A program made the translations under genes and the position numbers. The notes beneath the pieces were generated by a model. It did no database searches, was not told the origin of the DNA, and saw only the letters and a list, made by a program, of their open reading frames with translations. Shown here one piece after another: positions 267 through 59,300 of a stretch of DNA of 64,000 nt; positions within the stretch are counted from its first letter, which is position 1, and the number at the start of each line of letters is the position of its first letter. Source of the DNA: Hexactinellida sp. DTS-2022. Its lineage: Eukaryota; Porifera; Hexactinellida. The DNA lies in contig JAPNXP010000003.1 in the NCBI GenBank assembly GCA_028753945.1, positions 1,240,001-1,304,000 on the forward strand. Reading direction: 5' to 3'.

Positions 267-340
267 TTAAGGTTAAATTACGGCAAATTCTTGCAAAAAA
301 ACACACAAATTTCGTTTTGAAGTTAGATATTCAATTTTCA

Positions 341-1026
341 GGATCTCCAGCCCCACTGAGCAAACTCGTTTTTAACTGTTATTTATGACTACATCATATA
401 ATGAATCTATAAATATTCTCAACTCAACATGCGATTGCATACCTTTCCCATAGCATCAATTAAAAAATAGCACTATATGGAATCAATACAAATCTCCATA
501 TAGTAATTTATACAGGTTACTTGACGATTATTCTGCTATGGTTATATATTAAGTTAATATGCCTATTAATCAAATGTATAATGTATCCAGGTAGGGAGCT
601 ATGCTTATAACTTCCTTTATAACACATCATCCCTTCGGAATTTTCGCAAATTTGGCTATCAAACATATATCATAGGCCTATTTTATTAGTGTTACATATA
701 TTTATGTTTTATTTTTGGAAAAAGCTCTCCATAGCTCCCTACCTAATACATTTACCAATTGATTCTACTACAGTTCATAGCTCTACTATGGACACTGTTC
801 TTACAAACTTTTATGAATTGGGGTCAGGTTTTGCTGATCCCCGGGATTTTTCTAATGAGATTTCATCATTATGTATACTTTGGCTGCTCATAATTTGTTT
901 TTTATCGAATAGAATTTGCTAAAACTTTGCAGAAGCATTTTGCCATAAATTATATGCAACATTCTGGAAAGACCTTGATTTTTCATAAAATTGGGGGTTT
1001 TTTTGATTCAGTAGGGCTGGAGAACC
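341..1026. mobile_element. Element nested inside the 720-bp family copy
   Basis: The inverted ends are GGATCTCCAGCCCCACTGA on the left and the complement of GGTTCTCCAGCCCTACTGA on the right. They are flanked by TTCA (337-340) and TTGA (1027-1030), best read as decayed TTAA duplications. The uninterrupted relative at 5967-6686 lacks this 686-bp block, which supports it as a discrete insertion. No coding sequence is recognised. Confidence 0.7.
589..744. repeat. Short palindromic MITE-like insertion
   Basis: AGGTAGGGAGCTATG at the left is inverted as CATAGCTCCCTACCT at the right, with about 130 bp between. The match may extend outward as GTATYCAGG. No convincing target duplication is visible. 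It lies within the nested element at 341-1026 and is therefore a third level of nesting, or a hairpin belonging to that element. Confidence 0.5.
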
Positions 1027-1684
1027 TTGACATATATAATAGAAGAAATTATAGCAATATCGAAACTGAAAACGAAATCGAATTATATTCTATAAATTCG
1101 ATTTTATGGGGCGTGCAGTTATATGGTAATACAAAAGTACCATAGGGGGATTTCTTCAGACTCCAACTGATAAGTGTGTTGTTTGCAAGATCATTATTTG
1201 CTAAAGACCTGTACTGTGTGATCTATCAGATAGATCATCGTTAGGGGCGGTTGGTGGGCGGTTTAGAATTTTGATAAGATCTAAATAAAAAATATTGCGA
1301 CATTTTGAAACCAAAAAATGAATAAAAAGGTCATCTTTTTATGCGAAATTTGATTAAATGCTTGATAAACAAAATTCCAAGTCATAATTCAAAAATGTAA
1401 ACCGTCTACCAACTCCTTACGCTTATAAACTTTAAATATTGATTCTGATAACAAACATTGATGGCCGCATTGCCAAATTACCACATAATATCTACCAACA
1501 CTTTTGGAAATCGCCCTATGGGAGATTTGTATTAGCCAAATTTTGAAACCGACAAAAAATACAAAGTATAATAGATAGGGACATTTTCTTTTTGTTTTAT
1601 TGATTTGTATCGTATAGGCATATATTTCTCACAATTACAGATTAATACAAGAACTTTCATTCACGTGGGGTAATTTAACCTTAA

Positions 1685-2198
1685 CTCTATAATATTGAAT
1701 TAAAGTTGACAATCGACACGGCGAAATTTTAACAACTACTGATGAGGATCATTTTTGCGGATTAGTTTTTTTCCCTCCGACTTATACTTTATGAGAAAGC
1801 CGAGTATTACAAAGGTCACTTTCAGGAAAATACCGCGGAATCAATTTGTACAAAATTACGGTGATTCTGCCCTTTAGTGACGTCCAAAAGGTCAAAAAAA
1901 TGTCCGGATCCAATTTTTCTTTCGGATTTGGATAGATGGCATTTCAAAGTATAGCTAGGAGTTGCTAAACTAAAATTTATCCTTTTTCATGAATTTACAA
2001 TTATTCACCACTCTATGGCCATATTATTTTATAAGACGATGATTTTGACATTTGGATGATGTCAAAAAGGTTAAAAAAAGTCCGAATCCAATTTTTCTTT
2101 CGGAATTGGATAGATAGTTTATTAAAGTATAGATGGAATGCTTAAACAATAATTATGCATGATTTAATAATATACCTTAAATTTGAAATTCTATCTCC
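1685..2198 (-). mobile_element. Truncated relative of the 869-bp TTAA element at 43674-44542
   Basis: Read on the minus strand this follows the first 517 bp of the element at 43674-44542. Shared blocks include 'TTTTTGACGTCACTAAAGG'-like and 'TATGGCCATA' segments and a segment ending near the CGACACGGC motif. It ends with the same terminus GGAGATAG (as CTATCTCC, 2191-2198) next to TTAA at 2199-2202. The other end is missing: the stretch abuts the TTAA element at 271-1680, and nothing left of 266 matches the missing 350 bp. Confidence 0.7.
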
Positions 2199-2202
2199 TT
2201 AA

Positions 2203-2873
2203 ATTGACTAATGTTTATGTAACATTTTCAAACCAACCTTTAAAACCTTCCCATAAATATTATATTAGCCCTGCGGCTATATAAACTTCAATGAATCGGA
2301 CAACCATTTTTTGTTAAGTTAAATACAGACGTAGTGATGAAATTAATAGTGGGCCGTCGTGGGCTGCTGTTTTTATAGTTTTAGGACGCAGGAAATATAT
2401 TACTCTTCAAAATAAACTGGCATTTAAAGGCGCACAGAGGCGCACAGAATCTGACCAATTTCAAACTATTTGATGTCAATTTAAGGATGCTGAACGCGAA
2501 ATCCTAGTAGGTACTATGGGTAGTTTCTACAGATTTATTAAATTATTGTTTAATCACTATAAACATAAGATCTTAGACCCTAAATAGGATATTTAGTACT
2601 TGAGAGTATTTCTGAGAATTCTATTTTTGGCATGCTATAAGAAAATGTGTGCATTGTCTTCCCATTGACGTATACAGTAGAATCAAAACTTTGCGAGCAA
2701 TTCCTGCACAAACTGTAAGGGCGCAAGTTCTAAAAATTATACTGTATATTCATCAATACTAGGAATGCAAAATTGACCCTGACTGGAACTGTAGTGCACT
2801 TACTTTCTATTCTGGAATTATTTATACCTTGTTATGTCTAAATAGGGTCAAATTTTGACAATTTACCTTTAGA
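2203..2873. other. Unassigned AT-rich non-coding stretch
   Basis: I see no open reading frame of note, no inverted termini and no tandem repeat here. A short direct duplication of GGCGCACAGA occurs near 2430. Confidence 0.5.
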
Positions 2874-3549
2874 GGGGCAGCGTAAGTGAATTTTCAACAT
2901 TCGAAATTGAGAAAGTTGAAATTGCCATTAATTTGCTCTATAACTATCTAGTAAATATCCATAATATTAGAAGTTGCGAATGCATATATCCTCGGTTATA
3001 GCTTAATCAAATTTCTATACTATACTGATCCATACTAGCCAGGAAAAGTAAATTCACTATCTAAAATTATTTTTTCGAATAGTAACCTCAATTATAAAAT
3101 ATTCTTTACTCTATTTAGCTGTGTTTGTGTCGTAGGGAATTTTGATTTTAGGATTAAAATTTTCTAAAAATCATTTTTGGAAATTATATTCAAAAATATT
3201 AACTTTTTAGATGCGAAAATATGAAGATTTTTGAATATAATTTCCAAAAATGATTTTTAGAAAATTTTAATCCTAAATCAAAATTCCCTACGACACAAAC
3301 ACAGCTAAATAGAGTAAAGAATATTTTATAATTGAGGTTACTATTCGAAAAAATAATTTTAGATAGTGAATTCACTTTTCCTGGCTAGTATGGATCAGTA
3401 TAGTATAGAAATTTGATTAAGCTATAACCGAGGATATATGCATTCGCAACTTCTAATATTATGGATATTTACTAGATAGTTATAGAGCAAATTAATGACT
3501 ATTTCAACTTTCTCAATTTCGAATGTTGAAAATTCACTTACGCTTGCCC
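2874..3549. repeat. Near-perfect 676-bp hairpin (foldback MITE)
   Basis: Arms 2874-3197 and 3227-3549 are inverted copies of each other, with about five differences in 324 positions and a 29-nt loop. The termini are GGGGCAGCGTAAGTG and the complement of GGGCAAGCGTAAGTG. The right flank is TTAA (3550-3553); the left flank is TTAGA, a possible decayed TTAA. The interior shares landmarks with the elements at 14755-15456 and 34680-36719 (for example 'TAGTATGGAT'). It encodes no protein; a transcript would form a long double strand. Confidence 0.9.
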
Positions 3550-3553
3550 TTAA

Positions 3554-4916: not shown

Positions 4917-5392
4917 GGTTAAATTACGTCAGATTCTGGCAAAAAACACATAAATTTCGTTTTGAAATTAGGTGTTTGATTTTTCATTTTTCATGAGAAT
5001 TTTCAGAAGACATTATATCTAGATCCAAACTAAAAACCAAATCCAATTTTCTTCTATAACCTCGATTTATGGGGCGTGCGGTTTTAATCTAATACAAGAA
5101 TCCCATGTGGGAATTTCTTCAGACTCCACCTGATATGTGTGTGAATTTCAAGATGATTATTTGCTAAAGAGATATTATCTATAATATATCACATAGATCA
5201 TCGTGATGGGCGGTGGTAGCCGGTTTATAATATTAATTTGACTTAGATAAAATAATTGCTACTTTTTGATCGCAAAAATGAATATAAAGGTCATCTTTTT
5301 ATGCGATCTTTGATAAAATATTAGAAAAGAATATTCTGAGTAATAATTCTAAAAATTAAACCATCTACGAACTGCGTACGCTTATAATTTTT
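4917..5392. mobile_element. 720-bp TTAA family, truncated diverged copy
   Basis: It starts GGTTAAATTACGTCAG directly after TTAA (4913-4916) and tracks the other two copies through 'TTATGGGGCGTGC', 'TTCTTCAGACTCCACCTGAT', 'TAGATCATCGT' and 'AAAGGTCATCTTTTTATGCG'. Similarity stops near 5392, about two-thirds of the way along. It is more diverged than the other two copies, so probably older. Confidence 0.75.
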
Positions 5393-5649
5393 AAGAATAG
5401 GAAACCTCTTTTACAGAAGCATTACAAGACTGTTTGAAGCCAGCTGCGTACTTTATTTGATGGTGCGTATACAATGTTGTATAATTGACACCTTACATGC
5501 ATAGTCTAACTTAATATTTGTTACAAAGTAATCTTTCTAGCATTTCTTATAAGCTGCTAAAATTATATTTCGTATAAATGAACTCATATTATTATTATTG
5601 CATCATAATTTATTGTTTATGTGATTTCGTATTCTGTAAATAGAGAAAC

Positions 5650-5966: not shown

Positions 5967-6686
5967 GGTTAAATTACCCCACGTGAATGAAAGTTCTTGT
6001 ATTAATCTGTAATTGTGTGAAATATATACCTATACGATACAAATCAATAAACCAAAAAGAAAATGTCCCTCTCTATTATACTTTTTATTTTTTGTCGGTT
6101 TCAAAATTTGGCTAATACAAATCTCCCATAGGGCGATTTCCAAAAGTGGTGGTAGATATTATGCGGTAATTTGGCAATGCGGCCATCAATGTTTGTTATC
6201 AGAATCAATATTTAAAGATTATAAGCGTAAGGAGTTGGTAGACGGTTTACATTTTTGAATTATGACTTGGAATTTTTTAAATTAAGCATTTAATCAAATT
6301 TCGCTTAAAAAGATGACCTTTTTATTCATTTTTTGGTTTCAAAATGTCGCAATATTTTTTATTTAGATCTTATCAAAATTCTAAACCGCCCACCAACCGC
6401 CCATAACGATGATCTATCTGATAGATCACACAGTACAGGTCTTTAGCAAATAATGATCTTGCAAACCACACTCTTATCAGGTGGAGTCTGAAAAAATCCC
6501 CCTATGGGACTTTTGTATTAACATAGCACTGCAAGCCCAATAATTTCGAATTTATAGAAGATAATTAGATTTCGTTTTCAGTTTCGATATAGCTATAATG
6601 TCTTTCATCATATATGTGAAATTCAAACTCCCACCTTCAAAACTAAATTCATGTGTTTTTTTGGGTGAATCTGCCGTAATTTGACC
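5967..6686. mobile_element. TTAA-flanked non-autonomous element (720-bp family, uninterrupted copy)
   Basis: The ends are GGTTAAATTACCCCACG and the complement of GGTCAAATTACGGCAG. The flanks are TTAA (5963-5966) and TCAA (6687-6690, one change). The length is 720 bp. It is inverted relative to 271-1680. The plus-strand ORF at 6013-6258 is broken in the other copies and is not treated as a gene. Confidence 0.85.
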
Positions 6687-6690
6687 TCAA

Positions 6691-7562: not shown

Positions 7563-9879
7563 TTAGTCTTGAAATTGGTTACTTGGAGTCCATTTATCGC
7601 TATTCTTTTGCTTCTGTTTGAGCAAACCAACTTGAGAAACCTTCCCCTTACTCAATTTTTGAAGATATGGCAGTCTGCATGAAAGAGTCTTTTTCGTTCG
7701 TTCCCACGAGTCTTCCATCCATAACTCAGAATTCTTATTAACTATTAAGATAGTTTCCACACGTCCAGGTTTAGTATTCGCTCGGTCTCTGGTAACTACT
7801 CTGCCTGTTGTACTAAACAACCTCTCAACAGAAGAACTAGATGCAACATTGGCATGCGCTATACTTGCCATGTAACCAAGTCGAAAAAGCTTATGGAATC
7901 CAACCCCTTTATCTCTCCACCACTCAAGTAAGTTAAAATTTGTATTAACATCCACTTGAGGTAAGCCTTTGTAATATTGAATTTCTTCATCAAGAGAAAA
8001 CAATATTCCTAGCCTTTGAGGAATTTGATCTTCTAAAACCTTGTCATTATCCGAGCATGTATCTTGTAAGAGCGAAATCATGAAATTTCCCAGATTTTCA
8101 TCCAGTCTTGGAATTTTCTCTGGTTGTAGTATTGGTGTTATATCCATATCTTGTACCAACTGTTTTAGATAGGTATCTCCATTCCACAAACACCGCATAT
8201 TTTGAATTTGCGAAAAACATATCTCTCTCTTTCATTATTTTCGAGAAAACTCAATGACTTCCTTCTGGGATCCAGGAAAGTAGAAACCCCCATTAATTCT
8301 TTCTGATCATCTGTAAACTTGGTATCTATATTGCTTTCTAAATCAAGTAATAAGTTCTTACGAACTTCCCTAGCAAGAGAATTCAAAGTTTTCTGATCTA
8401 GGATCAAACTTGAGTTATGCGTCACAATAAAGATAGGTTGTTCGGGATTAAGATATTTTGATAGAAGCTTGATGGACGGATAGTATATTGAAATTGTAGG
8501 ATAGTCGCCCTGCAATATTTTGGTCACCCATTTGAATGGGGATAAGATTCCATGACAATGAATCAAAAATTCCTCTTCGAATGAGTCAAATTCCTTGATT
8601 TTTTCAGGGTGTTGTAGTGAATATATTTTCAAGGATTTTAATTTTTGGATAACGCTACCAATTAAGTCGTGAGTAGAGTCCCATCTTGTATCATTATCTT
8701 AAATAAGATCAGTTTGAGGCTCGTCAATGTCGGAAGAAATTTTCATCAACTTATAATTTGCCTCCGAGCTATGGTGGAAATGTCCAACGATTTTTCTAGC
8801 TTTTTGTATAATATCGCTCGCACGTACTAAAAAGTTGATATGGGGATGTTTTGATATTCCTCGAGATAACACATGAGTTGGAGTCAATTGAATTGTATGG
8901 CAACCACACCGTGTAGATATGGCAAGAGTAAAGTCTCGAATTCCTTTCACTATCTTGGGGCAATTGTCGTGTGAAACTGCATAGAAAAGATTACTAACGT
9001 TTTGATAACCATGAATTCCTAAAGAAGATATTATATCGTTTATCTTCTTTACAATCAATCCTCCTGAGTGTGACTCTGTGCATTCTACAACTCCTATTGT
9101 AATCGTTGAATGGTGGAATGTAATTGGTTCTATATTCGAAACTATGATACCGATATAATTGTCGTTCCTTTCGAATGCCATAAATCAATAGAGCCTGCTA
9201 ATTTGAAAAAGCATGTTTTCAACAAGATAACGATCAACTTGTCTTTAATTATTTCACGCACCAAATCCGCAGTTTGATCTAAAATAGTTGCCACCCATGT
9301 ATGACTAGGTGCCACATACGCCGGATTCAAATCATCTATAAATTGACGCATTCCTTCTCCTTCAATCTGTGATTGTGCGTGAAGATCGCGTATGACCACA
9401 TTTATGACATAAGATACATTCAACCAACCTTGTTCAAATTCGGTTAGAGGTCTTACTGTATGATGAGTGAGAGAACTTTGCTTACTTCGCGGATCAATAT
9501 CAACATTCAATAAATCAAGGTTCACATCCTCGGTCGTTCTATTTCGGTTTGAATAATAATCAAGTTTTGAAATTCCATGTTTATTTTTCAAATGATTGAT
9601 AGCTACAGAAGTAGAATTCACTAAAATACCTCTAGTTGATGAAGTGGGTTCTTTAGTAGGATCAGGAACGTTTATAGGGTAGCAGAGACTACAAATGATC
9701 TTATCTTTAGCCCATTTTTCAGGTAGTAAACCAAAATAATGCCCAAGAAAAACCCATGAAGTAGACTTAGGAGGGATAGGACGTGAACTTCCAAGAGCAC
9801 GAGTGGGGTAGTTTTGAAAGTCAAGGTTGAGGACAGTGATGCTGGTAGAGGAAGTAGAAATTGATTCACAAACTGACAT
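7563..9879 (-). pseudogene. hAT transposase with BED zinc finger (decayed)
   Basis: Read on the minus strand this is one transposase of about 770 codons, now in four pieces. The N-terminal part (9142-9879) has a BED-type finger with the pattern C-x2-C ... H-x4-H (CSLC ... HLKNKH). The next part (8699-9181) continues the RNase-H-like core after a frameshift near 9160. An in-frame TAA at 8699-8701 precedes DNDTRWDST, the family's TRW signature. A second frameshift near 8190 leads to the C-terminal dimerisation region, which contains SSSSVERLFSTTGRVVT. The order and spacing match hAT transposases, which cut and paste DNA as dimers. Three lesions make it inactive. It lies between the inverted 18-bp arrays, but whether those are its own ends is not shown. 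Confidence 0.92.
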
Positions 9880-9937
9880 ATGGTTTTAAAAAAGTTCAAG
9901 AAACTAAAAATTTGAAAATATAAGTCAAATTAAAATA

Positions 9938-14754: not shown

Positions 14755-15456
14755 GGTGTTAGCCCCTTGATATTTCGACACCCGACGACCTAATGTTTAG
14801 ATTGCATATTTGGATACTAGTAAGTATTCTAAGATATCCCTGCAAATATTAGAGTTCTACTATCCATTAATCCATAGTTATGAACTATGTAAGTTTCAAT
14901 ACAGTACTAATCCATACTAGCCAAGAATTGAATTTTGAACTTTTTTTTCATTTTTTAGCCCCAAACATGTCAATTATAAATTATACCTGAGTCGATTCTC
15001 AATGTTTTCAACCGTATCAGAATTTCATTTTTCCTCCGTCTTCCCTAACTTATTTTCATTTTTGTGAAATTGGTACAAAAAATTGCCAAAAATCTCACTA
15101 AAAGTGTCCTAATTAAATAAATTTGTATTATAATGCCAAAACTGACGCGGTTGAAAACATGCATCTACATATCCTGATCATTTCAAAAAAAAGGTCGACC
15201 TTCCAATGTAAAAATTGAGATTTTTGGATTCATTTTCCGAGATTCACTTTTTTTTTTTTTAATTTAATTTTTTTATAAAAATGCCCATATATGGAAGTCG
15301 ACGTCATAAGATTGTAAAATATTCATCTTTAGATGTAAGTTTGAGGGAAAAAAACTCATGGGAGTCAATCAGTATATCACACAGAGTATTCCTGGTAAAA
15401 AATATAGTCATAAAATTTCTCAATTTTTAGAGGCGGGAAATCAAGGGGCAAACACC
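14755..15456. mobile_element. TTAA-flanked 702-bp element (E family, copy 1)
   Basis: Perfect TTAA duplications lie at 14751-14754 and 15457-15460. The ends are GGTGTTAGCCCCTTGAT and the complement of GGTGTTTGCCCCTTGAT. Its interior aligns in reverse complement with both ends of 34680-36719. The perfect CCATATATGG at 15285-15294 recurs in other elements of the window. It is non-coding. Confidence 0.85.
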
Positions 15457-15687
15457 TTAAGTATAGGATTAGAACATTATTGAACAAGTATGAATCAGTT
15501 TACTAATGCATATAAATTATGTTAAATAGGATAGACGCTCTTATCCTATTCGTAAAATAATCTATATTTAGACAAAATAATTTGTTCTAGAAGAGAATTG
15601 CATACTTGTAGGTTATGATTTTCCGAAGTTGTTTCAATTCTAACATTTAGGAAATGTTTGCGCAATTCTATAGGGCTATGTTAAATT

Positions 15688-16254
15688 ACAAATGTCTATG
15701 CACGGACACCGGTATATTCGATTCAGACATTTATTGATTCATACTCATCCTTTGATAAGAATAATCGCGATGAAATTGATGTCCAACTAGTCTGGGATGA
15801 AATTGATGATCTCACTTCCATTGAATGTAGTTTACAGACTCTTCACTCATTAGCTTTTATTGCTGGTTATGCAGTACATAAATATATTTTAAAAACTCAG
15901 CCATGTCATGTTTGCATTGATCTTTTGACCATTGACAAAGACTTTATCTTTGATGAAGATTCACAACACGAGTTCAGGCTTTTGCAATTAACTGACCGTG
16001 GTGGCCTAAAGTCTCCATCTGAGTCTATCCTAGAATATATAGTAAGTTTATGGAAGACGTTAATTGCAATTGAAAGCAAAGAACATGTTGGCGATATTGA
16101 GGGAAGGATCAACCAGAAAGATTATTTTGAAAGTAACCTTGATATTCTTAGAAGAGCTGATGCGATTGCTAAATTGAGTTGCATTTCTTGTGGTGTCTCT
16201 ATTTTGACTATCCTAAAATCATATTTTCACTGGCGCCAACTGTTTACTAGCTAA
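15688..16254 (+). pseudogene. P-element-type transposase, C-terminal fragment
   Basis: An open frame of about 188 codons runs to the stop at 16252-16254. It has no good ATG, so it is a fragment. The segment ALAFIAGYAVHKYIL-like (sequence SLAFIAGYAVHKYI), then CHVC, then LTDRGGLKSPSESILEYI fits the C-terminal part of P-element/THAP9-like transposases, whose conserved features there are a GY-x-RK helix, a CxxC pair and a DRGGL(I/V)-P-S motif. P transposases bind DNA through a THAP finger and use GTP; neither of those regions is present here. Another P-type fragment lies 1.6 kb downstream in the opposite orientation (17855-18445). Confidence 0.72.
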
Positions 16255-16983: not shown

Positions 16984-17606
16984 CCGTAGACTGGGGCGAC
17001 TTTGTCCCATTATTCCACGTTTATCAATGTATTTCTTTAAATAATATCTGGGAATATTTTACTTGTCAATTAATTTTATTGGTAGCACATAACATGTTCA
17101 AATAATGAGATAGCTAAACTTTGGGGTACTTCTAACCAATTATTCTAAAAGTTTATCTTGGACCAAAGCTACCTATATCATGGAGTTGAAATTGTCCCAT
17201 TCTGTTAAACACCTGAAATAAAAGCATTTCATAAGAAAACGATAATGACAAATCTTACAGTATGCACTTATTTGACTGGTTTAGAAAAGGATTACTTTAT
17301 ACTGGAATCCATGGAAGACTTGGTGAACTATATGCATATTTGATTTATTTCCTCGAAAATTCCAAAGAAGTTCTAAAAATAATATCTTTGTTGAAATATA
17401 CTCTAAAACTCAAATGAATAAAACAACAATAACATATTTCACCAAATAATGAATAAATGTGATCATATTGATAATATGTTGAATGAAACTCACAATATAA
17501 TCAAAGGTATTTAAACCGCAATATTTCTTATTTAAAATATATTTAATTAAAATTGCTATTGTGGGACAAAGTAACCTCCTAGGGTCAAAGTCGCCCCAGT
17601 TTACGG
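16984..17606. mobile_element. Tc1/mariner-type MITE with TA duplication
   Basis: The ends are CCGTAGACTGGGGCGACTTT and the complement of CCGTAAACTGGGGCGACTTT. They are flanked by TA at 16982-16983 and 17607-17608. Subterminal 'GGGACAAAGT' words are also inverted. It is 623 bp with no transposase; the 76-aa minus-strand ORF covering the right end is not a gene. Confidence 0.85.
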
Positions 17607-17854
17607 TAGATCGATCGATTTTCGAAATGATATAGTCCAAGATGATGTTCCAATGGATCAGTCTGCAAGAAAGATGTCAAGAGGTATGAAAACCCACAGT
17701 CCTGAGTTAGAAAATTTGCTATTTGTGGCAACACGTGGCATGCATGTTTGAAGCTTGTGAACTTCTGCTTCCTTAATTTTCCACCTTTCCCAGACAGTGA
17801 TTCCCAAGCTTCTATCCAATAGAAAATCCTAGTCAGTAAGAGAAAACGCTCATC

Positions 17855-18445
17855 TTAAAATCTTATTGGAATAGACAATGGGTCGTTCAACCTGATATGT
17901 TTATAAGGCATATTGATATTGAAAATTTCCCAGAGAGATACGAGATTCTCAACGAAATCAGAGGTGTTGCATTTGAATGCAGGAGAACGCTGCTCATCCT
18001 GGGCAGCTAGAGCAGCAATTGTAGATTCGTGTACTACTTTTAGGACCATCTTAACATTTTGACGTTCTAAATTGGATGGATAACAAGCATTAGAAGACAA
18101 ACGAGGAGCAAGTTTAGTAAGGCTATCTCTCTCAGAATTATATAGTACACGGATATCACTGAAAGAAGCATGACAGATTTTCAATGTATAAGCGGATCGG
18201 TCAATAGAAAAACAGTTCAAATCAGGATGAGAAAAGACCATATTATCAGTTTGTTGATTCAACCAATTATTTCGAATAGTTTTCAGAATATGTAGGAAAT
18301 AAAATGTAAGGAAAAGAAATCTGCGTATATCACAAGGGTGTGGTACTCGAGTCACCAGCTTTCTATTAGGGGAAAACAATTTGAAAAGTTTCACATAAAT
18401 TAAGGGGATTGTTGTCAGTGGAGATGATTTCAACGAACAAGCCAC
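17855..18445 (-). pseudogene. P-element-type transposase, central fragment
   Basis: This 196-codon minus-strand frame contains ILKTIRNNWLNQ, then LTKLAPRLSSNACYPSNLER, then VKMVLKVVHESTIAAL, then FVENLVSLWEIFN. In P/THAP9-like transposases the same order occurs: a 'PHLLK-x-RN' segment, 'KLAPKLT..H..P', 'KM.V..A.QV.S..VA.AL' and 'T..F....D.LFD..N'. The first 60 codons look out of frame before ILKTIRNN, so a frameshift is likely. It should precede the C-terminal piece at 15688-16254, yet the two point in opposite directions. Confidence 0.72.
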
Positions 18446-18577
18446 TATTTCATACAGTTTTCGCTATCATGGTGTTGAGTCTGTATAAAAAATGGTCTTG
18501 TATTGTTCGTCTACTCCCATGTGCTTCTGTAATAGCTGTAAAGTTATTCGAAGTTATCAAATCTTGTATTCATGATG
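18446..18577. other. Unassigned spacer
   Basis: Short AT-rich spacer between the P fragment and an element fragment; nothing is recognised in it. Confidence 0.4.
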
Positions 18578-18757
18578 TTTAACATCCGATGACCCCAAAT
18601 TATTATTGCATTTTTGAACAGTGATAATTATTCTAAGAATGACGTGGATACTCAGAATTTCAAAAATCGAAAATTTTGAATTAAACATTCAAAGTCAAAG
18701 TTTAGCTTAATAGTGAATCCATATAGATAATGTAAAACATTGCAATTTATTCTATTA
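18578..18757. mobile_element. End fragment of the family seen at 43674-44542
   Basis: It matches the last 180 bp of the 869-bp element in reverse complement: ATCCGATGACCCCAAAT, then TTTTTGAACAGT, then CTCAGAATTTCAAAAATCGA, then TTTAGCYTAATAGTGAATCC. It is cut off at 18757 where a GGCTCGACCC element end begins. Confidence 0.75.
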
Positions 18758-18855: not shown

Positions 18856-19079
18856 TCAAGATGGAAATCGACATTAGAGTGTTTTTGGATAGGTCCCATT
18901 ATGGTTTATATACACTGAAGATTTCAGGTTAATCTGACCGAAATCTATTTCAGTTGAGACAATTTTAAAGTTTAGGAATGTGTGCATCATCACCCAAAGG
19001 TCACTTTTCAAATGAAATATAATTTCCGGGCGCGCGCCCGGTCACTGTTTTGCTCCAAATTTGTTGAAACCAAGTTTAA

Positions 19080-20850
19080 GAACCGACCCCCAAGTTCAAA
19101 ATAAAGTTCCATTTTTAATGTGCTAAAAGATAGATTTTAGTTTAATTGCATATTTACCATGCTCCATATAGTATTCACTAAAGTATAGTATTCACTAAAG
19201 TCTATAGTATTCACTAAAGTTTCATTCAGAAATTCCAAATACTTTGGAATATATCGACACCTGAAGTACATTCTTCTCCATATTTATGTAAAGATTAAAA
19301 AAATAATTTTTTAGTTAACTGTAGACTGCCTAACTGATACACGTTGTGTCAGGAGTGAAACATGTCGATCTAATCATTCAAATTTTTAGAAAATCGGATT
19401 TAGACATGGTTTTGTATTCTCAATCGATTTCAATCAAAAAATAAAAAATTCCAGAATTTGTTATGATGACGTAGCATAAAAGTGAACTGCTCCACTTGCC
19501 ACCCTCTTACTTTTGTAGATAAGAAATGTGAAAATCTCACCGTGGGAATACCCATAAGAAGATATTAGACTATTCTTATCTGTTTTAGGATATTTGGGTG
19601 GACTAATATAGAGTTGTGACAGATATAACTCAAATATATGTCTATTTTCGTAATCCATGGTTCATCAAATACAGATTTATCATTTTTATGAAAATTACGT
19701 TACTTTAGTTTCCTGATGCAGAATTGTTCAAATTTTGAGATCTGATAACTAATAAGATAGTCGTATTTGTTCCTGTATAGAAACAAAGGTTTACTTAAAT
19801 ATTAACGGCGTTATATCGATTTAAAGAGTTTGTATGTGTCATCACTTTTTGTCTAAATCTTGGAATAAAACTTTTCAAAAATTTCGTAATATTAATATAT
19901 TATTGTGCTCTTGTTTGATTTCTAATTTATAGGTTCTACATAGTATATACAAAGAACTACAGGTTCAGTTATTTTCCTGAAAATCACACCGGGAGTCTAC
20001 GGTTAAAGTGATGGCAACATGCGCAAGCCTAGAAATAAATTCCATTAAGTATTACGTTTTCTGGATTTAGCATTATTCAGTATATACTTGTAGTCAACCT
20101 AAGCCTGTAAACAACGTTTCAAAACATTTAAAGAATTCATTATATAAGAATTTGAATCAAATAAATGCAAAATAACCATGAGTCATGACTAGATATCACT
20201 TTCAAGACTAATAATTCACAGTTTATGCATCAACTTGAGAGTATTAGAGGTTTAGATTATACACTAGCATATCTATGGAATAAATATTGCTTGATCAGCG
20301 CTTAAGGCCTCTGACCTTCTGGAATATGGCCATAGGACCCCAAATCTTTTATGTTAAAATCCATTAGATTATTGTATTTTGCTATATATCAAAACAAAGT
20401 TTGACTCTCTAGCTCATATAGTTTCCAAGTTACAGCAAGTTATGTGAATTTGGAACTAACTGACGAATCATTGTATTTAACATTAATTGATTCACTTTCA
20501 TTTCCTGGAAAATTGGGTAGTTATCAATGCGATGTTAGTGCCTATATAGTTAGTACTAACTAGCTACCTGAAGGTAATAGAGCGTTTTAATTGATATCGT
20601 GTTTACTTTCAACACTGTCGGAATGATAAGTTTGAATTTCTCACCTCTGAAAAAAATTCCACAAAGTCATTGGTATTTCAGTCAGGTATAGGAATTTAAT
20701 ATTACTCAATATGGAACTATAATCAATCACTCGAGCGAGTATTATTCGAATTCACTTCTGATGGTGGATTTGTTATCAATATAGTGTAGGCTTATACTGA
20801 TATAACTATGGATTCGAATGGAACAAAAATCTCAACTTGGGGGTCGAGCC
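19080..20850. mobile_element. TTAA-type element (GGCTCGACCC family), nested
   Basis: The ends are GAACCGACCCCCAAGTT and the complement of GGCTCGACCCCCAAGTT. The flanks are TTAA (19076-19079) and TTAT (20851-20854). The right 160 bp (ACTCGAGCGAGTATTATTCGAATTC region, about 20730-20755) is the reverse complement of the subterminal part of the 53964-54852 element. About 19330-19510 is shared with 37186-37420. No coding sequence is recognised; ORFs here are short and unsupported. Confidence 0.8.
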
Positions 20851-21020
20851 TTATAATATAGAAAACATATGTTCTGAGGTAAGGAACCTTGATTATTTCT
20901 CTACAATCTAAACTTAGAAAGTTATAGACCTTTGAAATTCGACTTTGACTGCCATTTTTCATAATTTTGACTTATTTTGAAGAATTTATTGACTTGGCAG
21001 ATAAAGTCTGACTTCAAAAG

Positions 21021-21985: not shown

Positions 21986-23469
21986 CTTTTTTAAATTTAC
22001 TTTTCGCACTATTTGAAGATGATTAGAATGAATTTGTATTGTTGCAATCATTAGGATAATGGTTCAATTTGTTCTTCCAGGATGTTTGCAATACTATATG
22101 GATGATTTAGAAAATTTTTTCTAAAATCTAGAGTATATTTATCAGGAGTGTAAAATTTGTAAAATCATCAAAAATTGTCACATTTCTATGCCCATATATG
22201 GTAATTTTGAAAACGAAGTTAGTTAGGGTCACAAAATGTATTATGGACGGATAGGAAGTCGGGTAGTGCGAACATTTTGCACACAAAATTGTTATTATAG
22301 GTCCACGGGTTTGTGAGAAACAATAATATATAATCATAGGATCCACCCAATGAGATTTTCAAAAAATAGCATTTGGAAAAGTTTATTTGGTGTCAGGGTC
22401 ATATATTTGGTCAAAATTTAATGAAATCAAGTGTAAAATAAGGAATACATATCTATTTAGGGAATGATCCTATATCGAAACTTCACAATGCAAATTTTTA
22501 AAGTAAAGCCCTTCGAAGTTAGATTTGTCACTTGGCAGTTGAGATCGAAGTTCAATTGGCTATAACTCAGAAAATTTGCTTTGGAATGGTATAAATTTTT
22601 GTTTACACCCAAATTACATATCCAATTATGCTAATGTTTGAATAACAACGTAAATGAGTGCAAATTGAGACTTGCGAGCCTACAAACCTATTAAAACATT
22701 ATAAAATATTCCTTTCATAATGACCTTCACATTCCTGGCACTTATAATGGTCACTACTGCAAAACTAGAATTCAGATTTATCTGAAATTTGCAATTTAGC
22801 TCTACTTTATAGTGTGCTATCCAAAACAACCAAATCTCAATTTCTCTGACGAGCATTGTAGGGCCGGAAAAATACTAACACTGAATTTGGCAAGATAACA
22901 GAAATTTATCGCTTTCACAATGCCATAACGTGGTAAAATCTTCTCAGAATTGAAAAAATAATTTCCAGCTGCTCTCCCCAATAATATTACATTTAATAAT
23001 GAAATAAACTCAAAAATAATTATTTTGCAATCTTGAGTAATGATAGGGATAAACTATGAAAGCTGAATTCGAATAACATTGACTCGAGTGATTTAGTATA
23101 ATTAAATTGCGTGATATTAAATTCCTATACCTGATGATTTTATCTGCGCGTAATTTGAAAAAGAAATTGATGATAAAGACTTGTTTTGTATTTTGTTATT
23201 ATCTATGTAAACAAACAAAGAGCCCCTGGCACTTGGATGTGAATTCACATTCACAATATTGTTCAGTAAAGCTTAAAAGTGAAACTATTCAAATTTCAAT
23301 GATTATTCTGCATTTTTCTGATTCAAACACTTATAACAATTTATTCCATCTATTATGAATATCGTAACTGCCAGGGGTCCTTGATCTATATATGATTTTA
23401 TGCCTGAAGTCTAAAATTACTATATACATTGAAGTATATTTCTCAAAATGCGCGCATGTGGGTGTAACT
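21986..23469. other. Non-coding stretch with element fragments
   Basis: CCATATATGG at 22192-22201 sits in a fragment resembling parts of 35790-36210. About 23040-23140 (GAATTCGAATAACATT ... TTAAATTCCTATACCTGA) matches a segment about 100-180 bp inside the 53964-54852 element. No gene is supported; the ORFs at 22128-22346 and 23107-23358 lack motifs, and the second overlaps the element fragment. Confidence 0.5.
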
Positions 23470-24115: not shown

Positions 24116-24123
24116 GTGCAACT

Positions 24124-27067: not shown

Positions 27068-27530
27068 TCAATTGCAATAGAAGTTCTAACTAGTTGTTGG
27101 CAAGTAATAAAATGAAAAAAAGGTCAAGTGGTCCATTAGTTTTGGTGGTTTTTAGACAAAACACAAATTATTATAACCAGTGGATTCTCTTGGTCGGTCC
27201 AGCAACAGGACAACTGGTGGGCAAAGCAAGAGCACTATTTTCAATAGGAAACAGCACATATATATAGATTATACTTGAATAATTTTAAATATTATATTGT
27301 GGTTCCATAAGAATAAGGTTATATTATGCTATGGGTTGCAAATGTATTGTTAATAATATATTACTACGAAATCAATATTAAATTCATAATTACTCTATAA
27401 AATGGGAAAGATAAAAAAACTTTTTGGGATTCTAAATCTAGAATGGAGTGGATGTCATTCAGGGAGACATATTTCAATAAATATTGGGAGTCTTTTGTTG
27501 AAATTTGGAGGGAATTAAGGGAACATATAG
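27068..27530. other. Unassigned upstream flank
   Basis: AT-rich with no gene. No terminal repeat for the transposase to its left could be recognised. Confidence 0.4.
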
Positions 27531-42128: not shown

Positions 42129-45100
42129 TGGTTTACCGACGTTTCCAGTTGTTTCTTTTGATGATATGAAGTATTTATCACCAAAGGTGTTTTAATAGTG
42201 CCACTGAAACACCATTCACTCAAGTAACATTCATTTAAGAGCTAATAACGAGAAAAACCAATTTTTATTTGCAATGACTGTCAAAAACTCCCAATTGATA
42301 AATTAATGGTTTAAGGACGTTTCCTGTTGTTTCTTTTTATTATATGTTGTGTTTATCATCAAAGGTGTCCCTACAGTGCCACTGAAACACCATTCACTCA
42401 ATTTACAATCATTTAAGAGCCAGATATCGAGAAAAACCAATTTTTGTGACCTATGACTGTCAAAAACTACCAAAATGATAAATGAATGGTTTACCGACGT
42501 TTCCAGTTGTTTCTTTTGATGATATGAAGTATTTATCACCAAAGGTGTTTTAATAGTGCCACTGAAACACCATTCACTCAAGTAACATTCATTTAAGAGC
42601 CTAATAACGAGAATAACCAATTTTTATTTGCAATGACTGTCAAAAACTCCCAATTGATAAATTAATGGTATAAGCACGTTTCCAGGTAAATCTTTTTATT
42701 ATATGTAATATTTATCATCAAAAGTGTGCTAACAGTGCCACTGAAACACCACTCCCTCAAGTAACATTCACTAGATAGCCTAATATCGTGAAAAATCCAA
42801 TTTTTGAGTGCAATAACTGTCAAAAACTACCAAAATGATAAATGAATGTTTACCGACGTTTCCAGTTGTTTCTTTTGATTATATGAATTATTTATAACCA
42901 AAAGTGTCTTAATAGTGCCACTGAAACACCATTCACTCAAGGAACTTTCATTTAAGAGCCTAATAACGAGAAAAACCACTTTTTATTTGCAATGACTGTC
43001 AAAAACTCCCAAATTGATAAATTATTGGTTTAAGGACGTTTCCTGTTGTTTCTTTTGATGATATGTAGTATTTATCATCGAAGGTGTCCAAACAGTGCCA
43101 CTGAAACAGCATTCACTCAATTTACATTCATTTAAGTGCCTAATAACGAGAAAATCCAATTTTATGTGCTATGACTGTCCAAGAATCCCAACTTGATAAA
43201 TTAATGGTTTAAGGACGTTTCCTGTTGTTTCTTTTGATGATATGTAGTGTTTATCATCAAAAGTGTCCCTATAGTGCCACTGAAACACCACTCACTCAAT
43301 TTACAATCAATTAAGAGCCAGATATCGAGAAAAACCAATTTTTGTGACCTATGACTGTCAAAAACTAACAAAATGATAAATGAATGGTTACCGATGTTTC
43401 CAGTAGTTTCTTTTGATGATAAGAAGTATTTATCATCAAAGGTGTCCACACAGTGCCACTGAAACACCATTCACTGAAGTAACATTCATTTAAGAGCCTA
43501 ATAACGTGAAAAACCAATTTTTATTCTCAATGACTGTCAAAAACTCCCAAATTGATAAATTATAGGTTTCTGGACGTTTCCTATTGTTTCTTTTGGTGAT
43601 ATGTAGTATTTATGATCACAAGTGTCCAAACAGTGCCACAGAAACTCCATTCACTCAATTTACATTCATTTAAGGAGATAGGCCCGCCGATTTGTCAATC
43701 GAACGCTGGATCCAAATAATCTATGATAAATACTTCTCGCTGTACCTTGACATGCTTTCTAACCAAATCCGAAAGAAAAATTCGATTCGGACATTCTTTT
43801 CACCTTTTTGACGTCACTAAAGGTCAAAATCATCTTCTTATAGAATAATATGGCCATAGAGGGGTAAATAATTGTGAATTCATGAAAAACGATAAATTTA
43901 GTTTAACCCTTCCTAGCTATACTTTGACATGCTATCTATCCAAATCCAAAAGATAAATTTGATTCGGACATTTTTTTAACCTTTTTGACGTCACTAAAGG
44001 TCAAAATCACCGTCATTTTGCACAAATACATTCCGTTCGAATTTCCTGAGAGTGACCTTTGTATTCTTATGTTTATCTCAAGAAGTATAAGTCGTAGAGA
44101 AAAAAACTATCCCTCAAAAATGATCCTTGTCAGTTGTTCTTGGGATTATGCCGTGTCGATTTTCAACTTTAATACAAAACTATAGAGTTAATAATTATAT
44201 AATGCCAAATTTCTGATAAAATCGAGTGAATATTTGAAAATCTATAGAAAAAAAGAATCAAATCGATATCGCAAATTCTGTGTGGCATAATCCCTTGTAC
44301 TAATGTAGTAGAGTTAAACTTGCACTGTATAGAACTTGCGCCAAATAGAGTAAATAGCTAGAATTTAGAATGACTAGTATGGATTCACTATTAGGCTAAA
44401 CTTTGACTATGAATATCTAATTCAAATTTTTCGATTTTTGAAATTCTGAGCATCTACGTCCTTCTTAGAATTACTAGTACTGTTCAAAAATACAATAATA
44501 TTTGGGGGTCATCGGGTGTCAAAAATCGGCGGGTCTATCTCCTTAAGAGACTAATAACGAGAAAAATAAATCTTTATGTCCAATGACTTACAAAAACGCC
44601 CAAATTGATAAATTATTTTTTTAAGCACGTTTCCTGTTGTTTCTTTTGATGATATGAAGTATTTATCATCAAAGGTGTCCTGATAGTGCCACTGAAACAC
44701 CTCTCACTCAATTTACATTCATTTTTGAGCCTAGTTTCAGGAAAAACCAATTTTTGTGTGCATTGACTGTCAAAAACTCCAAAATTGCTAAATTAATGGT
44801 TTACCGACGTTTCCAGTTTTTTCTTTTGATGATATGAATTATTTATCACCAAAAGTGTCTTAATAGTGCCACTGAAACACCATTCACTCAATTTACATTC
44901 ATTTAAGAGCCCAATAACGAGAAAAATAAATTTCTATATGCAATGACTGTCAAAAACTACCAAATTGATAAATGAATGGTTTACCGACGTTTCCAGTTGT
45001 TTCTTTTGATGATATGAAGTATTTATCATCAAATGTATACTGATAGTGCCACTGAAACACCACTCACTCAATTTACATTCATTTTTGAGCCTAGTGTCTG

Positions 45101-53963: not shown

Positions 53964-54852
53964 GGCTCGACCCACACCTTCAGAACTATTAGTCCCTTCA
54001 GATCCAAACTTATATCAGATTTAGCCATATCTATGCTGATAATAAATCCGCAATCGAAATTGAATTCGAACAATATTCGCTCGAATGATTGTGTATAGTT
54101 CCATATTACGTAATATTAAATTCCTATACCTGACCTAAAATATGTGCGCCGTACTAAAAAAAAATTCACAGAAGTTTAAGTGTTGATTATTCCTTGTTTA
54201 TTCAATACATATACATAGCTAAGCTGCAGACTAAAAGTTGATCGTTTCATAAGCTTACTAATATTTTTCAATGTGTCAAAGTCAAAACAAGCTATTTGAA
54301 TGATGATTATTGCATTTTTCTGATTTAAAGAATTACAACAATTTGAAAAAGTATCATAATCGTCTAATTATAGCTTACAGCTTAGCTATGCATATGTATT
54401 GAATAAACAAGGAATAATCAACACTTAAACTTTTGTGAATTTTTTATTATTACGGCGCATGTTGGGCTGGGTTGGTACTTTGTTGAAGAATATCTGTTTA
54501 TTTATATTGTAATACTATTTTCCTATATATATACACTTCATTCAGTAGGAATCTTATATAGTGGTTATATAACAATGTTAACTAAGTATTATGCATTCGT
54601 TTTATCTTAAGTTATGTAGTATTCAGCAATACAAATTAGATATTTCCGCTATAAATTATGACGAAATCCCCCCCAATTTTTGTACTACGTCAGTGGCGCA
54701 AAGTGGCGCAAGTTGGTATATTTCCTAAAGTATTTGGAATTTCTTGATGAAAATTTCTGTGAATATACCCCATCTATAGAGCATGCGGAATATGCAATAA
54801 TATACATTTAATCAATGGACTGGGCCTCCGTCCTGAAGGTGTGGGTCGAGCC
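53964..54852. mobile_element. 889-bp TTAA element inserted in the satellite (GGCTCGACCC family, complete)
   Basis: TTAA duplications are perfect (53960-53963 and 54853-54856). The terminal inverted repeat GGCTCGACCCACACCTTCAG is perfect over 20 bp. The flanks join to a normal monomer (TTTGATAAATTAATGG). Inside is a strong inverted repeat (54144-54229 and 54372-54459). Relatives are at 18758, 19080-20850 and about 23040. It is non-coding. Confidence 0.95.
54144..54459. repeat. Internal hairpin of the 889-bp element
   Basis: Arms 54144-54229 and 54372-54459 are inverted copies (TTGATTATTCCTTGTTTATT against AATAAACAAGGAATAATCAA) with a loop of about 140 bp. The left copy near 54155 has a run of nine A. 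Confidence 0.85.
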
Positions 54853-54974
54853 TTAATGGTTTAAGCCCGTTTCCTATTGTTTCTTTTTATTATATGTAAT
54901 ATTTATCATCAAAAGTGTGCTAACAGGGCCACTGAAACACCACTCACTCAAGTAACATTCATTTGAGAGCCTAA

Positions 54975-56362
54975 GGGTATCCCATTATGGAGAAAAACCG
55001 GAAATTTCGCTCCAAAAAACAACATAAATTAATTTTTTTTTTTTACCAAACACTACCGAAGGACCATAACTAACGTTTGTATATGGTTTTGAGCCAGGTC
55101 CAAGCGTATTTTCTGAGTTATGAGCTATTTTGTACAGCGTATCACGGGGTTCTCCACTTTGAACTATTATCAGTACTGTATTCCTCAACAATGGTAAGAT
55201 TGGTGGTATCATTACTCTATCCTAGCAATCAATGACGAAAATAAACAACAATTGATCAAAAAAAATTCGCAAAAAGTGAAAATCTAAACATTTATGGTCT
55301 ATAATCTCATTCGAGGGTACGTTTTCTTGTCCATTTTCTATCTCAGGCACCCGAGCAGCTAGCATCAACACTTACGTCTCAAAATGCTCGCAATACACAA
55401 CTTCCTATACGTACATAATACATTTTGGGACCCTAACACCCTCTGTTTTCAAAATGATCCCTATATGGGCATGCAATGTGCCCAATTTTGATGACACAGC
55501 AAAATCTATATCAACGAAAGTATAAACTCTAGAGTTTAGCTCTAACATTCTATTCACATCAATATCCTACCACAAAGTCATTGAAAGTACAAATGAGACT
55601 CATAATCCAATGGTCACTCTTCTATAAATTTACATACCCATATATGGTGGTGTCATTTCAGAAATGAAACCATGAACTTTGAAATTAAATAATGTGCTAG
55701 AGTTAAGTTCCAACTTCCTAGTAACATCAATAATCCTTTTTAAGTTAGATGGTATAGTTATCGAATACTACTTCGTAAATTTAATCGTGTTGGGATTCTT
55801 TGCGGCCTTTTTCTCAAAATAATATAAATGCCGGTGTTTGGGGGCTAATGTCACGGAGTGTGACGAAATCAAGATAGGTTAAGAGCTCAAAAAATTTCTA
55901 CAAGTTCTAGACCACTAACATTTAGCTACGAGTGATTGAATAAGCAAAAAACACCATAATTCTACTAATAAGAGAGAAACAATCTCATAACTAAATACAT
56001 ATTCAAATATCCCTACCTCAGACTTTGTCCCCTCCATATTCGTTGAAGAAATTTCGAAATCTCATTTTATTCGAAATAGCTTCGAAAGATATTGCTTTTA
56101 TATAGTTGAATTGAGCTAGAGAACATTCTAGAACAATTCAGAAACTATATACAAGCTTGACACTATCTATGTTATATTGAATAGACGCACATAACTGTAT
56201 ATTAAAAGAATCCATACCTAGACAAAACAATTCAATATGCACTTGAATGAATAAATTCTTGGCTATTTTTAAGCTGATCAACTTGTGTTATTACTTAGAA
56301 GTATTCAGAGAATCTATAGACATGTTCTACAGTGATTTATCAGTTTCCTATAAGGGATACCG
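54975..56362. mobile_element. 1.39-kb element with CTAA duplication inserted in the satellite
   Basis: The ends are GGGTATCCCATTAT and the complement of CGGTATCCCTTAT. The target repeat is CTAA (54971-54974 and 56363-56366); a 3-bp TAA reading is also possible. The satellite without the insertion reads GAGCCTAATATCG at 52275. CCATATATGG is at 55638-55647. Relatives are at 12960-13622 and 35790-36210. A 3-bp TAA target would suggest PIF/Harbinger, but no transposase is present to decide. Confidence 0.88.
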
Positions 56363-59300
56363 CTAATATCGTGAAAGATCCAATTTTTGAGTGCAATCAC
56401 TGTCAAAAACTACCAAAATGATAAAAGAATGTTTACCGACGTTTCCAGTTGTTTCTTTTGATGATATGAATTATTTATCTCCAAAAGTGTCTTAATAGTG
56501 CCACTGAAACACCATTCACTCAAGGAACCTTCATTTAAGAGCCTAATACGATAAAAACCAATTTTTATTTGCAATGACTGTCAAAAACTCCCAAATTGAT
56601 AAATTATTGGTTTAAGGACGTTTCCTGTTGTTTCTTTTGATGATATGTAGTATTTATCATCAAAAGTGTCCAAACAGTGCCACTGAAACTTCATTCACTC
56701 AATTTACATTCATTTCAGAGCCTAATAACGAGAAAAAACAATTTTTATGTGCAATGACTGTCAAAAACTCCAAAATTGATAAATTAATGGTTGAAGGACG
56801 TTTCCTGTTGTTTCTCATTATTATATGTAATATTTTTCATCAAAAGTGTGCTAACAGTGCCAATGCAACACCACTCACTCAATTTACACTCATTTAAGAG
56901 CGAGATATCGAGAAAAACCAATTTTTGTACCTATGACTGTCAAAAACAACCAAAATGATAAATGAATGGTTTACCGACGTTTCCAGTTGTTTCTTTTGAT
57001 GATATGAATTATTTATCACCAAAAGTGTCTTAATAGTGCCACTGAAACACTATTCACTCAAGAACTTTCATTTAAGAGCCTAATAACGAGAAAAACCAAT
57101 TTATATTTGCAATGACAGTCAAAAACTCCCAAATTGATAAATTATAGGATTAAGGACGTTTCCTGTTGTTTCTTTTGATGATATGTAGTATTTATCATCA
57201 AAAGTGTCCAAACAGTGCCACTGCAACACCACTCACTCAATTTACAATCATTTAAGAGCCTAATAACGAGAAAAACCATTTTTCTATGTGCAATGACTGT
57301 CAAAAACTACCAAAATGATAAATAAATGGTTTACCGACTTTTCCAGTTGTTTCTTTTGGTGATATGAAGTATTTATCATCAAAGGTCTACTGATAGTGCC
57401 ACTGAAACACAACTCACTCAATTTAAATTCATTTTTAAGCATAGTTTCTGGATAAACAAATTTTGTGAAATAGGACTGTTAAAAACTACCAAAATGATAA
57501 ATGAATGGTTTCCGACGTATCCAGTTGTTTCTTTTGATGATAAGAAGTATTTATCATCAAAGGTGTCCAAACAGTGCCACTAAAACACCATTCACTGAAG
57601 TAACATTCATTTATGAGCCAAATAACGTGAAAAACCAATTTTTATTTGCAATGACTGTCAAAAACTTTCAAATTGATAAATTAATGTTATAAGCACGTTT
57701 CCTGTTGAATCTTTTTATTATATGTAATATTTATCATCAAAAGTGTGCTAACAGTGCCACTGAAACACCACTCACTCAAGTAACATTCATTTGAGACCCT
57801 AATATCGTGAAAAACCAATTTTTGTGTGCAATGACTGTCAAAAATATCAAAATGATAAATGAATGTTTACCGACGTTTCCAGTTGTTTCTTTCGATGATA
57901 TGAATTATTTATCTCCAAAAGTGTCTTAATAGTGCCACTGAAACACCATTCACTCAAGGAACCTTCATTTAAGAGCCTAATACGATAAAAACCAATTTTT
58001 ATTTGCAATGACTGTCAAAAACTCCCAAATTGATAAATTAATGGTTTAAGGACGTTTACTGTTGTTTCTTTTGATGATATGTAGTGTTTATCATCAAAAG
58101 TGTCCAAACAGTGCCACTGCAACACCACTCACTCAATTTACAATCATTTAAGAGCCTAATAACGAGAAAAACCATTTTTCTATGTGCAATGACTGTCAAA
58201 AACTACCAAAATGATAAATGAATGGTTTACCGACTTTTCCAGTTGTTTCTTTTGGTGATATGAAGTATTTATCATCAAAGGTATACTGATAGTGCCACTG
58301 AAACACAACTCACTCAATTTAAATTCATTTTTAAGCCTAGTATCTGGAAAAACAAACTTTGTGAAATAGGACTGTCAAAAACTACCAAAATGATAAATGA
58401 ATGGTTTCCGACGTTTCCAGTTGTTACTTTTGATTATAAGAAGTATTTATCATCAAAGGTGTCCAAACAGTGCCACTGAAACACCATTCACTGAAGTAAC
58501 ATTCATTTAAGAGACAAATATCGTGAAAAACAAATTTTTATTTGCAATGACTGTCAAAAACTTTCAAATTGGTAAATTAATGTTATAAGCACGTTTCCTG
58601 TTGAATCTTTTTATTATATGTAATATTTATCATCAAAAGTGTGGTAACAGTGCCACTGAAACACCACTCACTCAAGTAACATTCACTTGATAGCCTAATA
58701 TCGTGAAAAACCAATTTTTGTGTGCAATGGCTGTCAAAAACTACCAAATTGATAAATTAATGGTTAAAGGACGTTTCCTGTTGTTTCTTTTCATGATATG
58801 TCGTCTTTATCATCAAAAGTGTCCAAACAGTGCCACTGCAACACCACTCACTCAATTTACAATCATTTAAGAGCCTAATAACGAGAAAAACCATTTTTCT
58901 ATGTGCAATGACTGTCAAAAACTACCAAAATGATAAATGAATGGTTTACCGACTTTTCCAGTTGTTTCTTTTGGTGATATGATGTATTTATCATCAAAGG
59001 TCTACTGATAGTGCCACTGAAACACAACTCACTCAATTTAAATTCATTTTTAAGCCGAGTATCTGGAAAAACAAATTTGTGAAATAGGACTGTCAAAAAC
59101 TACCAAAATGATAAATGAATGGTTTCCGACGTTTCCAGTTGTTTCTTTTGATGATAAGAAGTATTTATCATCAAAGGTGTCCAAACAGTGCCACTGAAGT
59201 AACATTCATTTAAGAGCCAAATAACGTGAAAAACCAATTTATATTTGCAATGACTGTCAAAAACTTTCAAATTGATAAATTAATGTTATAAGCACGTTTC

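Follow-up and report, generated by a model that had tools for sequence, protein, structure and literature searches.

The Kolobok superfamily of DNA transposons, described by Kapitonov and Jurka and treated in PMC9587614, is defined by TTAA target-site duplications, 5'-RR...YY-3' ends and a DDE transposase with a C/DxxH motif between the second D and the E; this and the other papers are cited for the parts of their text that were accessible. A finger with a very constant third C sits between CxxH and E, a CCHC finger follows the first D in some lineages (P, E, D and 5), and the partners named for Kolobok are DnaQ, lambda-exonuclease-like, His-Me, RecQ and KolX (PMC9587614). In Xenopus, the short T2-MITE subfamilies with TTAA targets and purine ends are credited to the Kolobok transposases of XKol (PMC6004289). 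The transposon piggyBac and its miniature inverted-repeat transposable elements also duplicate TTAA, but their ends read CC[C/T]T and their transposase is of the DDE_Tnp_1_7 type (PMC2872659). Here we analyse a 64,000-nucleotide stretch of the glass sponge Hexactinellida sp. DTS-2022 (assembly GCA_028753945.1, contig JAPNXP010000003.1, our contig C12, bases 1240001-1304000; hereafter the window) from a 112.4-Mb genome of 18 contigs. It holds six families of short elements, A to F, which very probably represent non-autonomous cut-and-paste DNA transposons of the Kolobok superfamily. This placement is supported for families B and F, whose arms enclose a transposase gene elsewhere in the genome, and is likely for A, C, D and E, which are unlinked to a transposase.

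GG-ended elements in the window and across the genome

The boundaries of all elements named in an earlier, sequence-only reading of this DNA were read base by base. Family A (271-1680, forward strand; ends GGTTAAATTACGGC and GGTTAAATTACCCC) carries a family B element nested inside it (341-1026, forward; ends GGATCTCCAGCCCC and GGTTCTCCAGCCCT; flanks TTCA and TTGA), and a second A copy without the nested insert lies at 5967-6686 on the reverse strand (flanks TTAA and TCAA). Family C occupies 14755-15456 (ends GGTGTTAGCCCC and GGTGTTTGCCCC), family D 29608-30495 (GGAGTCA ends, inverted arms of about 170 bases, flanks TTAA and TTCA), family E 43674-44542 (end GGAGATAGRCCCGCCGATTT) and family F 53964-54852 (end GGCTCGACCCACACCTTCAG; a deletion derivative of a PF20700 transposon, as argued below), all on the forward strand. 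Exact TTAA copies flank both sides of four of these seven elements (the longer A, C, E and F) and one side of two (the shorter A and D), with neither side of the nested B element showing TTAA. When GG-starting inverted pairs were counted in the window (12-base ends, at most two mismatches), four lay beside TTAA, one beside TATA and none beside eight other 4-mers.

All six families are repetitive: a first-look genome search, covering families A to F and not the hairpin G described below, with at most 40 candidates scored per family, returned 667 candidates for A, 46 for B, 374 for C, 252 for D, 506 for E and 271 for F. The F end TTAAGGCTCGACCC occurs 105 times in the genome, against no occurrence of the reversed pattern. 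For families C to F, ten copies each, chiefly the best full-length ones, were taken from the scored lists and read at both ends; both flanks were TTAA in 28 of the 40 (seven in C, five in D, nine in E and seven in F), one C copy had TGAA on both sides, and the outer flanking DNA was unrelated between copies. Among the full A copies in fetched loci, partial copies being left out, TTAA was found on both sides in 27 of 33 and on one side in the other six. The named families all start with GG, with deviations in single A copies.

These results also bear on the reading that TTAA flanks and GG ends meet by chance in AT-rich DNA. TTAA is missing from at least one side of three of the seven window elements, and a scan of 357 kb of fetched sequence gave 62 TTAA-flanked inverted pairs, 36 of them GG-starting, of which 29 were copies of family A, for which the loci had been fetched; without that family, GG accounts for 7 of 33 pairs and AA for 6 of 33, a balance that favours the chance reading. 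Chance is nevertheless as good as refuted, since copies with the same ends lie in unrelated outer flanks; the 4-mer and reversed-pattern controls, two further pattern-search controls (35 against 3 in the search that gave facing B ends, 32 against 0 for E ends) and the empty site of a B insertion also stand against it. The sequence-only reading, which had claimed GG-starting ends at TTAA or one-change TTAA copies, holds on the boundaries, the window 4-mer control and the genome copies. The same scan yielded two further GG elements, GGCCAGGG (locus L146) and GGTTCAGG (L007).

Amplification of families A and F was recent, because some F copies are about 98-100% identical to the window copy and 34 A copies differ from their consensus by a median of 1.4% (0.4-12.5%). 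At C11:9802379-9802402 (L160), two F ends lie back to back with one TTAA common to both.

Families F and B as putative derivatives of PF20700 transposons

The candidate enzyme belongs to PF20700 ('Mutator-like transposase'), a family that we take to occur next to lambda-exonuclease domains and assumed as a possible Kolobok transposase before testing this identity by target, ends and motifs; the literature searched gave nothing on PF20700. The genome contains at least 116 matches (114 of 213 candidates scored), many of them within open frames of 780-910 codons. Together with the low divergence of the A copies, this abundance bears out the earlier suggestion that the TTAA machinery has been very active.

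For family F, exact copies of the TTAAGGCTCGACCC end were found at a distance of 2.2-2.6 kb on the 3' side of the PF20700 domains at C11:9804977(-), 5456717(+) and 6801236(+), and 2.0 kb 5' of the domain at C11:7791382(+). The 3' arms at L160 and L165 match the left arm of F and the 5' arm at L163 matches its right arm, while L160 and L164 are identical over 241 bases. On contig C11, a PF20700 domain lies inside at 1.0-4.5 kb for six of 55 F ends, against 0.84 expected, and one of 5000 shifts reaches six; F arms are seen at three of the six (L160, L163 and L165), and a fourth, L164, has the L160 end. The window itself preserves a degraded transposon of this type over about 23.06-27.53 kb, in which an L160-like 3' arm (23056-23342, unstranded, in pieces like F and L160), a degraded PF20700-type transposase (24608-27067, reverse strand) and a 5' arm (27385-27530, unstranded; 85% to L163, the bearer of an exact TTAA|GGCTCGACCC end) stand in the same order as the arms of F. 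Piece by piece, the amino-acid identity of the transposase remnant with the L160 transposase is 48-88%, and DNA identity is 82% over 2191 bases. L159 was rejected as an autonomous F element: it has CGGTGTCCC ends of its own and is a distinct PF20700 element next to which an F end happens to lie.

For family B, the locus joining a transposase to a B arm (L052) was retained because the partner end was found. Facing B ends at C3:964864 and C3:968868, 4005 bp apart with TTCA on both sides, enclose a PF20700 match (C3:966227-967168) in an open frame of 616 amino acids. Bases 1-511 of the short B element correspond to the 3' arm of this longer element (87%) and bases 534-686 to its 5' arm (71%). Two other candidates were set aside: L056 is a transposon of the L156 type into which a B element has inserted, and the long B copy L148 (C18:3765618-3769853) carries an insert with THAP, the frames of which appear P-like on inspection by eye. 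In the longer B copies L149-L151 there is no long frame, no search for transposase pieces having been made in them. Between the B and F transposases, identity is 54-57% over two aligned stretches and 33-43% over two others.

The families ending in GGCTCGACCC (F) and GGCTCTCCAGCCC (B) are thus, judging from the DNA, internal-deletion derivatives of PF20700 transposons; longer copies with a transposase, proposed earlier as a check, were found for both, with matching ends. We propose a model in which a larger transposon (4.0 kb for B) would encode a DDE transposase composed of the PF20700 domain and a C-terminal PHD finger, with a 3' arm on one side of the gene, a 5' arm on the other and 5'-GG...CC-3' at the ends of the element. 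Loss of the middle would leave short elements that keep both arms and could be moved in trans by the enzyme. Each insertion would duplicate a 4-bp target, TTAA for A, C, D, E and F and mainly TTCA for B. Families A, C, D, E and the hairpin G would likewise use enzymes of the PF20700 class, and the PHD finger may read histone H3. Four parts of this model can be read from the sequence itself: the ends, the duplications, the derivation of F and B by deletion, and the signature residues that mark this class of transposase.

Kolobok signature of the transposase

In all four proteins of L156-L159, which are uninterrupted, SFDxSW, a CCHC finger, GDGD, ECLxH, an H-x4-H-x2-C-P-x6-C finger and NxNESLH follow one another in this order, in line with the account of Kolobok in PMC9587614, and the CCHC finger lies downstream of the first D in five of five aligned proteins. 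In the broken frames of L160, the first D, the second D and CxxH were seen, and neither the E motif nor the H-x4-H-x2-C-P-x6-C finger was found. L158 is a PF20700 element of 3588 bp with exact 17-bp ends and TTAA on both sides; for L156 and L157, element ends were not found in the stretch read. The target duplication of MuDR elements is 8-9 bp. A MuDR assignment, suggested by the name of PF20700, was rejected on the 4-bp duplications at L158, L159 and C3:964864-968868. Separately, a 1605-bp TTAA-flanked element at L048:966-2570 has CGGTATCC/CGGTGTCC ends close to those of the PF20700 element L159.

Compared with described systems, the elements share with Kolobok (PMC9587614, accessible parts) the 4-bp TTAA target, RR...YY ends (here GG...CC), a DDE domain with CxxH, the finger between CxxH and E and the CCHC finger after the first D; they differ in the C-terminal PHD finger, the TTCA target of B and the CG ends of two PF20700 elements. 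As in the accessible account of T2-MITE and XKol (PMC6004289), there are short TTAA subfamilies with purine ends (AGGRR there) credited to Kolobok transposases, but T2 ends are AG/AGGRR and XKol transposases usually bear a THAP domain, which had no match in the PF20700 proteins scanned (L156-L160). KolobokP, as far as PMC9587614 was available, also has the CCHC finger after the first D and duplications of 3-4 or 4-5 bp by family and not strict TTAA, but differs in its long terminal direct repeats (which were not looked for here) and its His-Me nuclease, for which the same five proteins gave no Pfam match. A wider look at THAP (PF05485; 1052 candidates, 150 scored) led to three scanned loci, L145-L147, which are P-element-like and were rejected; L145 has perfect 214-bp inverted ends.

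Weighing the Kolobok placement

One rival is piggyBac, which likewise duplicates TTAA. The genome holds 57 piggyBac (PF13843) matches, several of which comprise the whole domain within a long open frame, and C11 is rich in these as well; there, two lie inside F ends within 4.5 kb against 0.31 expected. One of these, C11:8873110 with 8875130, is unexplained, the locus not having been read, and the other is separated from its F end by a complete short F element (5887461-5888343), past whose far end it lies. Against a piggyBac origin, the families start with GG, not with CC[C/T]T, and the arms of F and B enclose PF20700, not piggyBac. Four piggyBac loci (L141-L144, of the 57 matches; flanks of 0.9-2.2 kb) contained no copy of any of the six ends, nor any convincing inverted ends flanked by TTAA, with a single TTAAGG lacking a partner beside the gene at L143. 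No piggyBac gene was tied to any family. Derivation from piggyBac is therefore very improbable, and the earlier expectation that GG ends at TTAA point to Kolobok and not to piggyBac agrees with the PF20700 genes in the longer F and B copies and with the signature in four of four proteins.

Several observations pull against the Kolobok placement and the link to PF20700. (i) Among the six C11 F ends near PF20700, that at 8418504 is a neighbour of L159, a separate element with its own ends, and that at 8466762 was counted by position without its end being read. (ii) The F arms were traced to PF20700 loci in different copies, and both ends were not seen in any one F transposon. (iii) Two PF20700 elements have ends that are not RR, L158 starting with CGCTACC and L159 with CG (CGGTGTCCC), the latter flanked by TTAT. 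(iv) The class was assigned by target, ends and motifs, with no Repbase Kolobok protein compared. (v) The PHD match falls below the Pfam cut-off in three of five genes. (vi) No longer copies were found for A, C, D or E, E being the one family of these searched, with patterns that covered two out of three types of its ends; by eye, no pair among the 32 E-end hits encloses a listed PF20700 match.

The last point leaves room for a mixed origin, in which B and F would be Kolobok, with A, C, D and E forming a different TTAA group that has yet to be described. The D ends lack the CCC present in other families, and the CG ends mean that end sequence varies within the PF20700 class. On the other side, A, C, D and E agree with F in their GG...CC ends and their TTAA target, a subterminal 11-mer is common to C, E and the hairpin G, and A and B have a weaker stretch of 13 bases in common. 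We regard such a mixture as unlikely, though clearly less so than piggyBac, and retain the Kolobok placement for all six families; for A, C, D and E we infer it from their ends, their target and, in C and E, the common 11-mer.

PF20700 matches, piggyBac matches and F ends pile up on C11 (15.6 Mb, 13.8% of the genome), mainly at 2-12.5 Mb: by hand counts among the matches listed, C11 has 63 of 116, 37 of 57 and 55 of 100, respectively. THAP is not concentrated there (14 of 150 scored). Close inverted piggyBac pairs of equal score lie at C11:10780310/10785053, 4928457/4938567 and 5004528/5008793.

The TTCA target of family B and the PHD finger

Family B targets mainly TTCA, and its flanks are not decayed TTAA. 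Both ends were readable in 17 copies, and the flanks were identical in eight, reading TTCA/TGAA in six, TTAA in one and TCAA in one; the nine copies with unequal flanks (a one-base difference in seven, a larger one in two) weaken this reading. Counted by end, TTCA or TGAA adjoins 20 of 46 B ends and TTAA 10 of 46, as against 1 of 66 and 60 of 66 A ends (Fisher p = 1.3e-8, with the two ends of one copy not independent). The window copy offers a direct view of an empty site: A copies without the B insert read TTCA there in most of the alignments shown, so the TTCA/TTGA flanks represent a TTCA target with one later change. The sequence-only reading had treated the B flanks as one-change TTAA, which the empty site and the six of eight matched duplications contradict. 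A Kolobok with a TTCA target was not found in the literature searched.

A PHD finger match was present at the C-terminus of all five PF20700 genes scanned, above the Pfam cut-off in two (L158 and L160). A search of PDB with the transposase profile returned 52 rows; 50 fall on the PHD finger, and the other two lie elsewhere at E values of 0.22 and 0.87. The motif C-x2-C-x2-W-[YFIM]-H marks PHD readers of H3K4-methylated histone. PMC9587614 contains no occurrence of PHD, and PMC10799480 places PHD in host SHREC fusions and not in a transposase. It is conceivable, though we hold it tentatively and at somewhat less than even chances, that this is a Kolobok lineage whose PHD finger, being of this H3K4-methyl-reading type, may steer integration to marked chromatin, and within which B has switched from palindromic TTAA to asymmetric TTCA while keeping its GG ends. 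If this were true, a comparison of the B and F transposases would show the residues that set the target. A pair of related families, one using TTAA and the other TTCA, whose transposase copies can be traced, offers a natural comparison for target choice by DDE enzymes, and with the PHD finger comes the idea, which can be tested, that chromatin guides insertion. The many TTAA repeats here, which might otherwise be filed as piggyBac or left unlabelled, would gain a name and an enzyme, and tying PF20700 to TTAA use and Kolobok hallmarks would change the annotation of such genes.

Relatedness among the families

The six families had been described as unrelated, and they are not fully so. The exact 11-mer ATCCATACTAG occurs in the same orientation in C (155 bp from the end), E (158 bp) and the hairpin G (155 and 157 bp). 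G lies at 2873-3550 (unstranded) and has GGGGCA and GGGCAA ends with 310-base arms; TTAA stands on its right only, where the element ends at 3549 (GGGCAA), and TTTAGA precedes GGGGCA on the left. In 2000 dinucleotide shuffles, no 11-mer at matched distance was common to three families, whereas some pair had one in 227. Families A and B have 13 bases in common, starting 147 and 144 bp from the end, a weak match given the 227 of 2000 shuffles with a pair 11-mer. In subfamilies of C and E, the inner end bases change on both sides together, as expected if one enzyme binds both ends, and the outer GGTGTT or GGAGATAG is largely kept.

Other features of the window and the genome

Partial relatives of these families are scattered through the window. 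An E-related fragment (1681-2117, reverse strand; 84% to E 82-518) adjoins the right TTAA of the longer A element, and a half copy of A with a TTAA|GGTTAAATTACGTC end lies at 4917-5394 (forward; 78%). A longer F-related element (19077-20853, unstranded), with GGCTCGACCCCCAAGTT at one end and AACCGACCCCCAAGTT at the other, is 79% identical to F in one arm. A C-related copy occupies 36223-36705 (reverse; 77%), with the 11-mer of C, E and G at 36555.

Remnants of other transposons are also present. On the reverse strand, hAT remnants occur at 7563-9885 and 27882-29161, with dimerisation domain matches in 7563-8231 and 27882-28703; that family D is an insertion breaking a hAT frame was rejected, as joining the flanks gave no longer frame. 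Degraded P-element-like transposase lies at 15685-16254 and 17606-18579. Between 40000 and 64000, repeats with a palindromic unit CTTTTGATGATATGTAGTATTTATCATCAAAAG surround the E and F elements, and GC skew is steadily negative to 60 kb and beyond. At four contig ends (L152-L155), no TTAGG or TTAGGG arrays were seen by eye; the ends of C13 and C18 have a longer repeat unit in common, and C12 has another.

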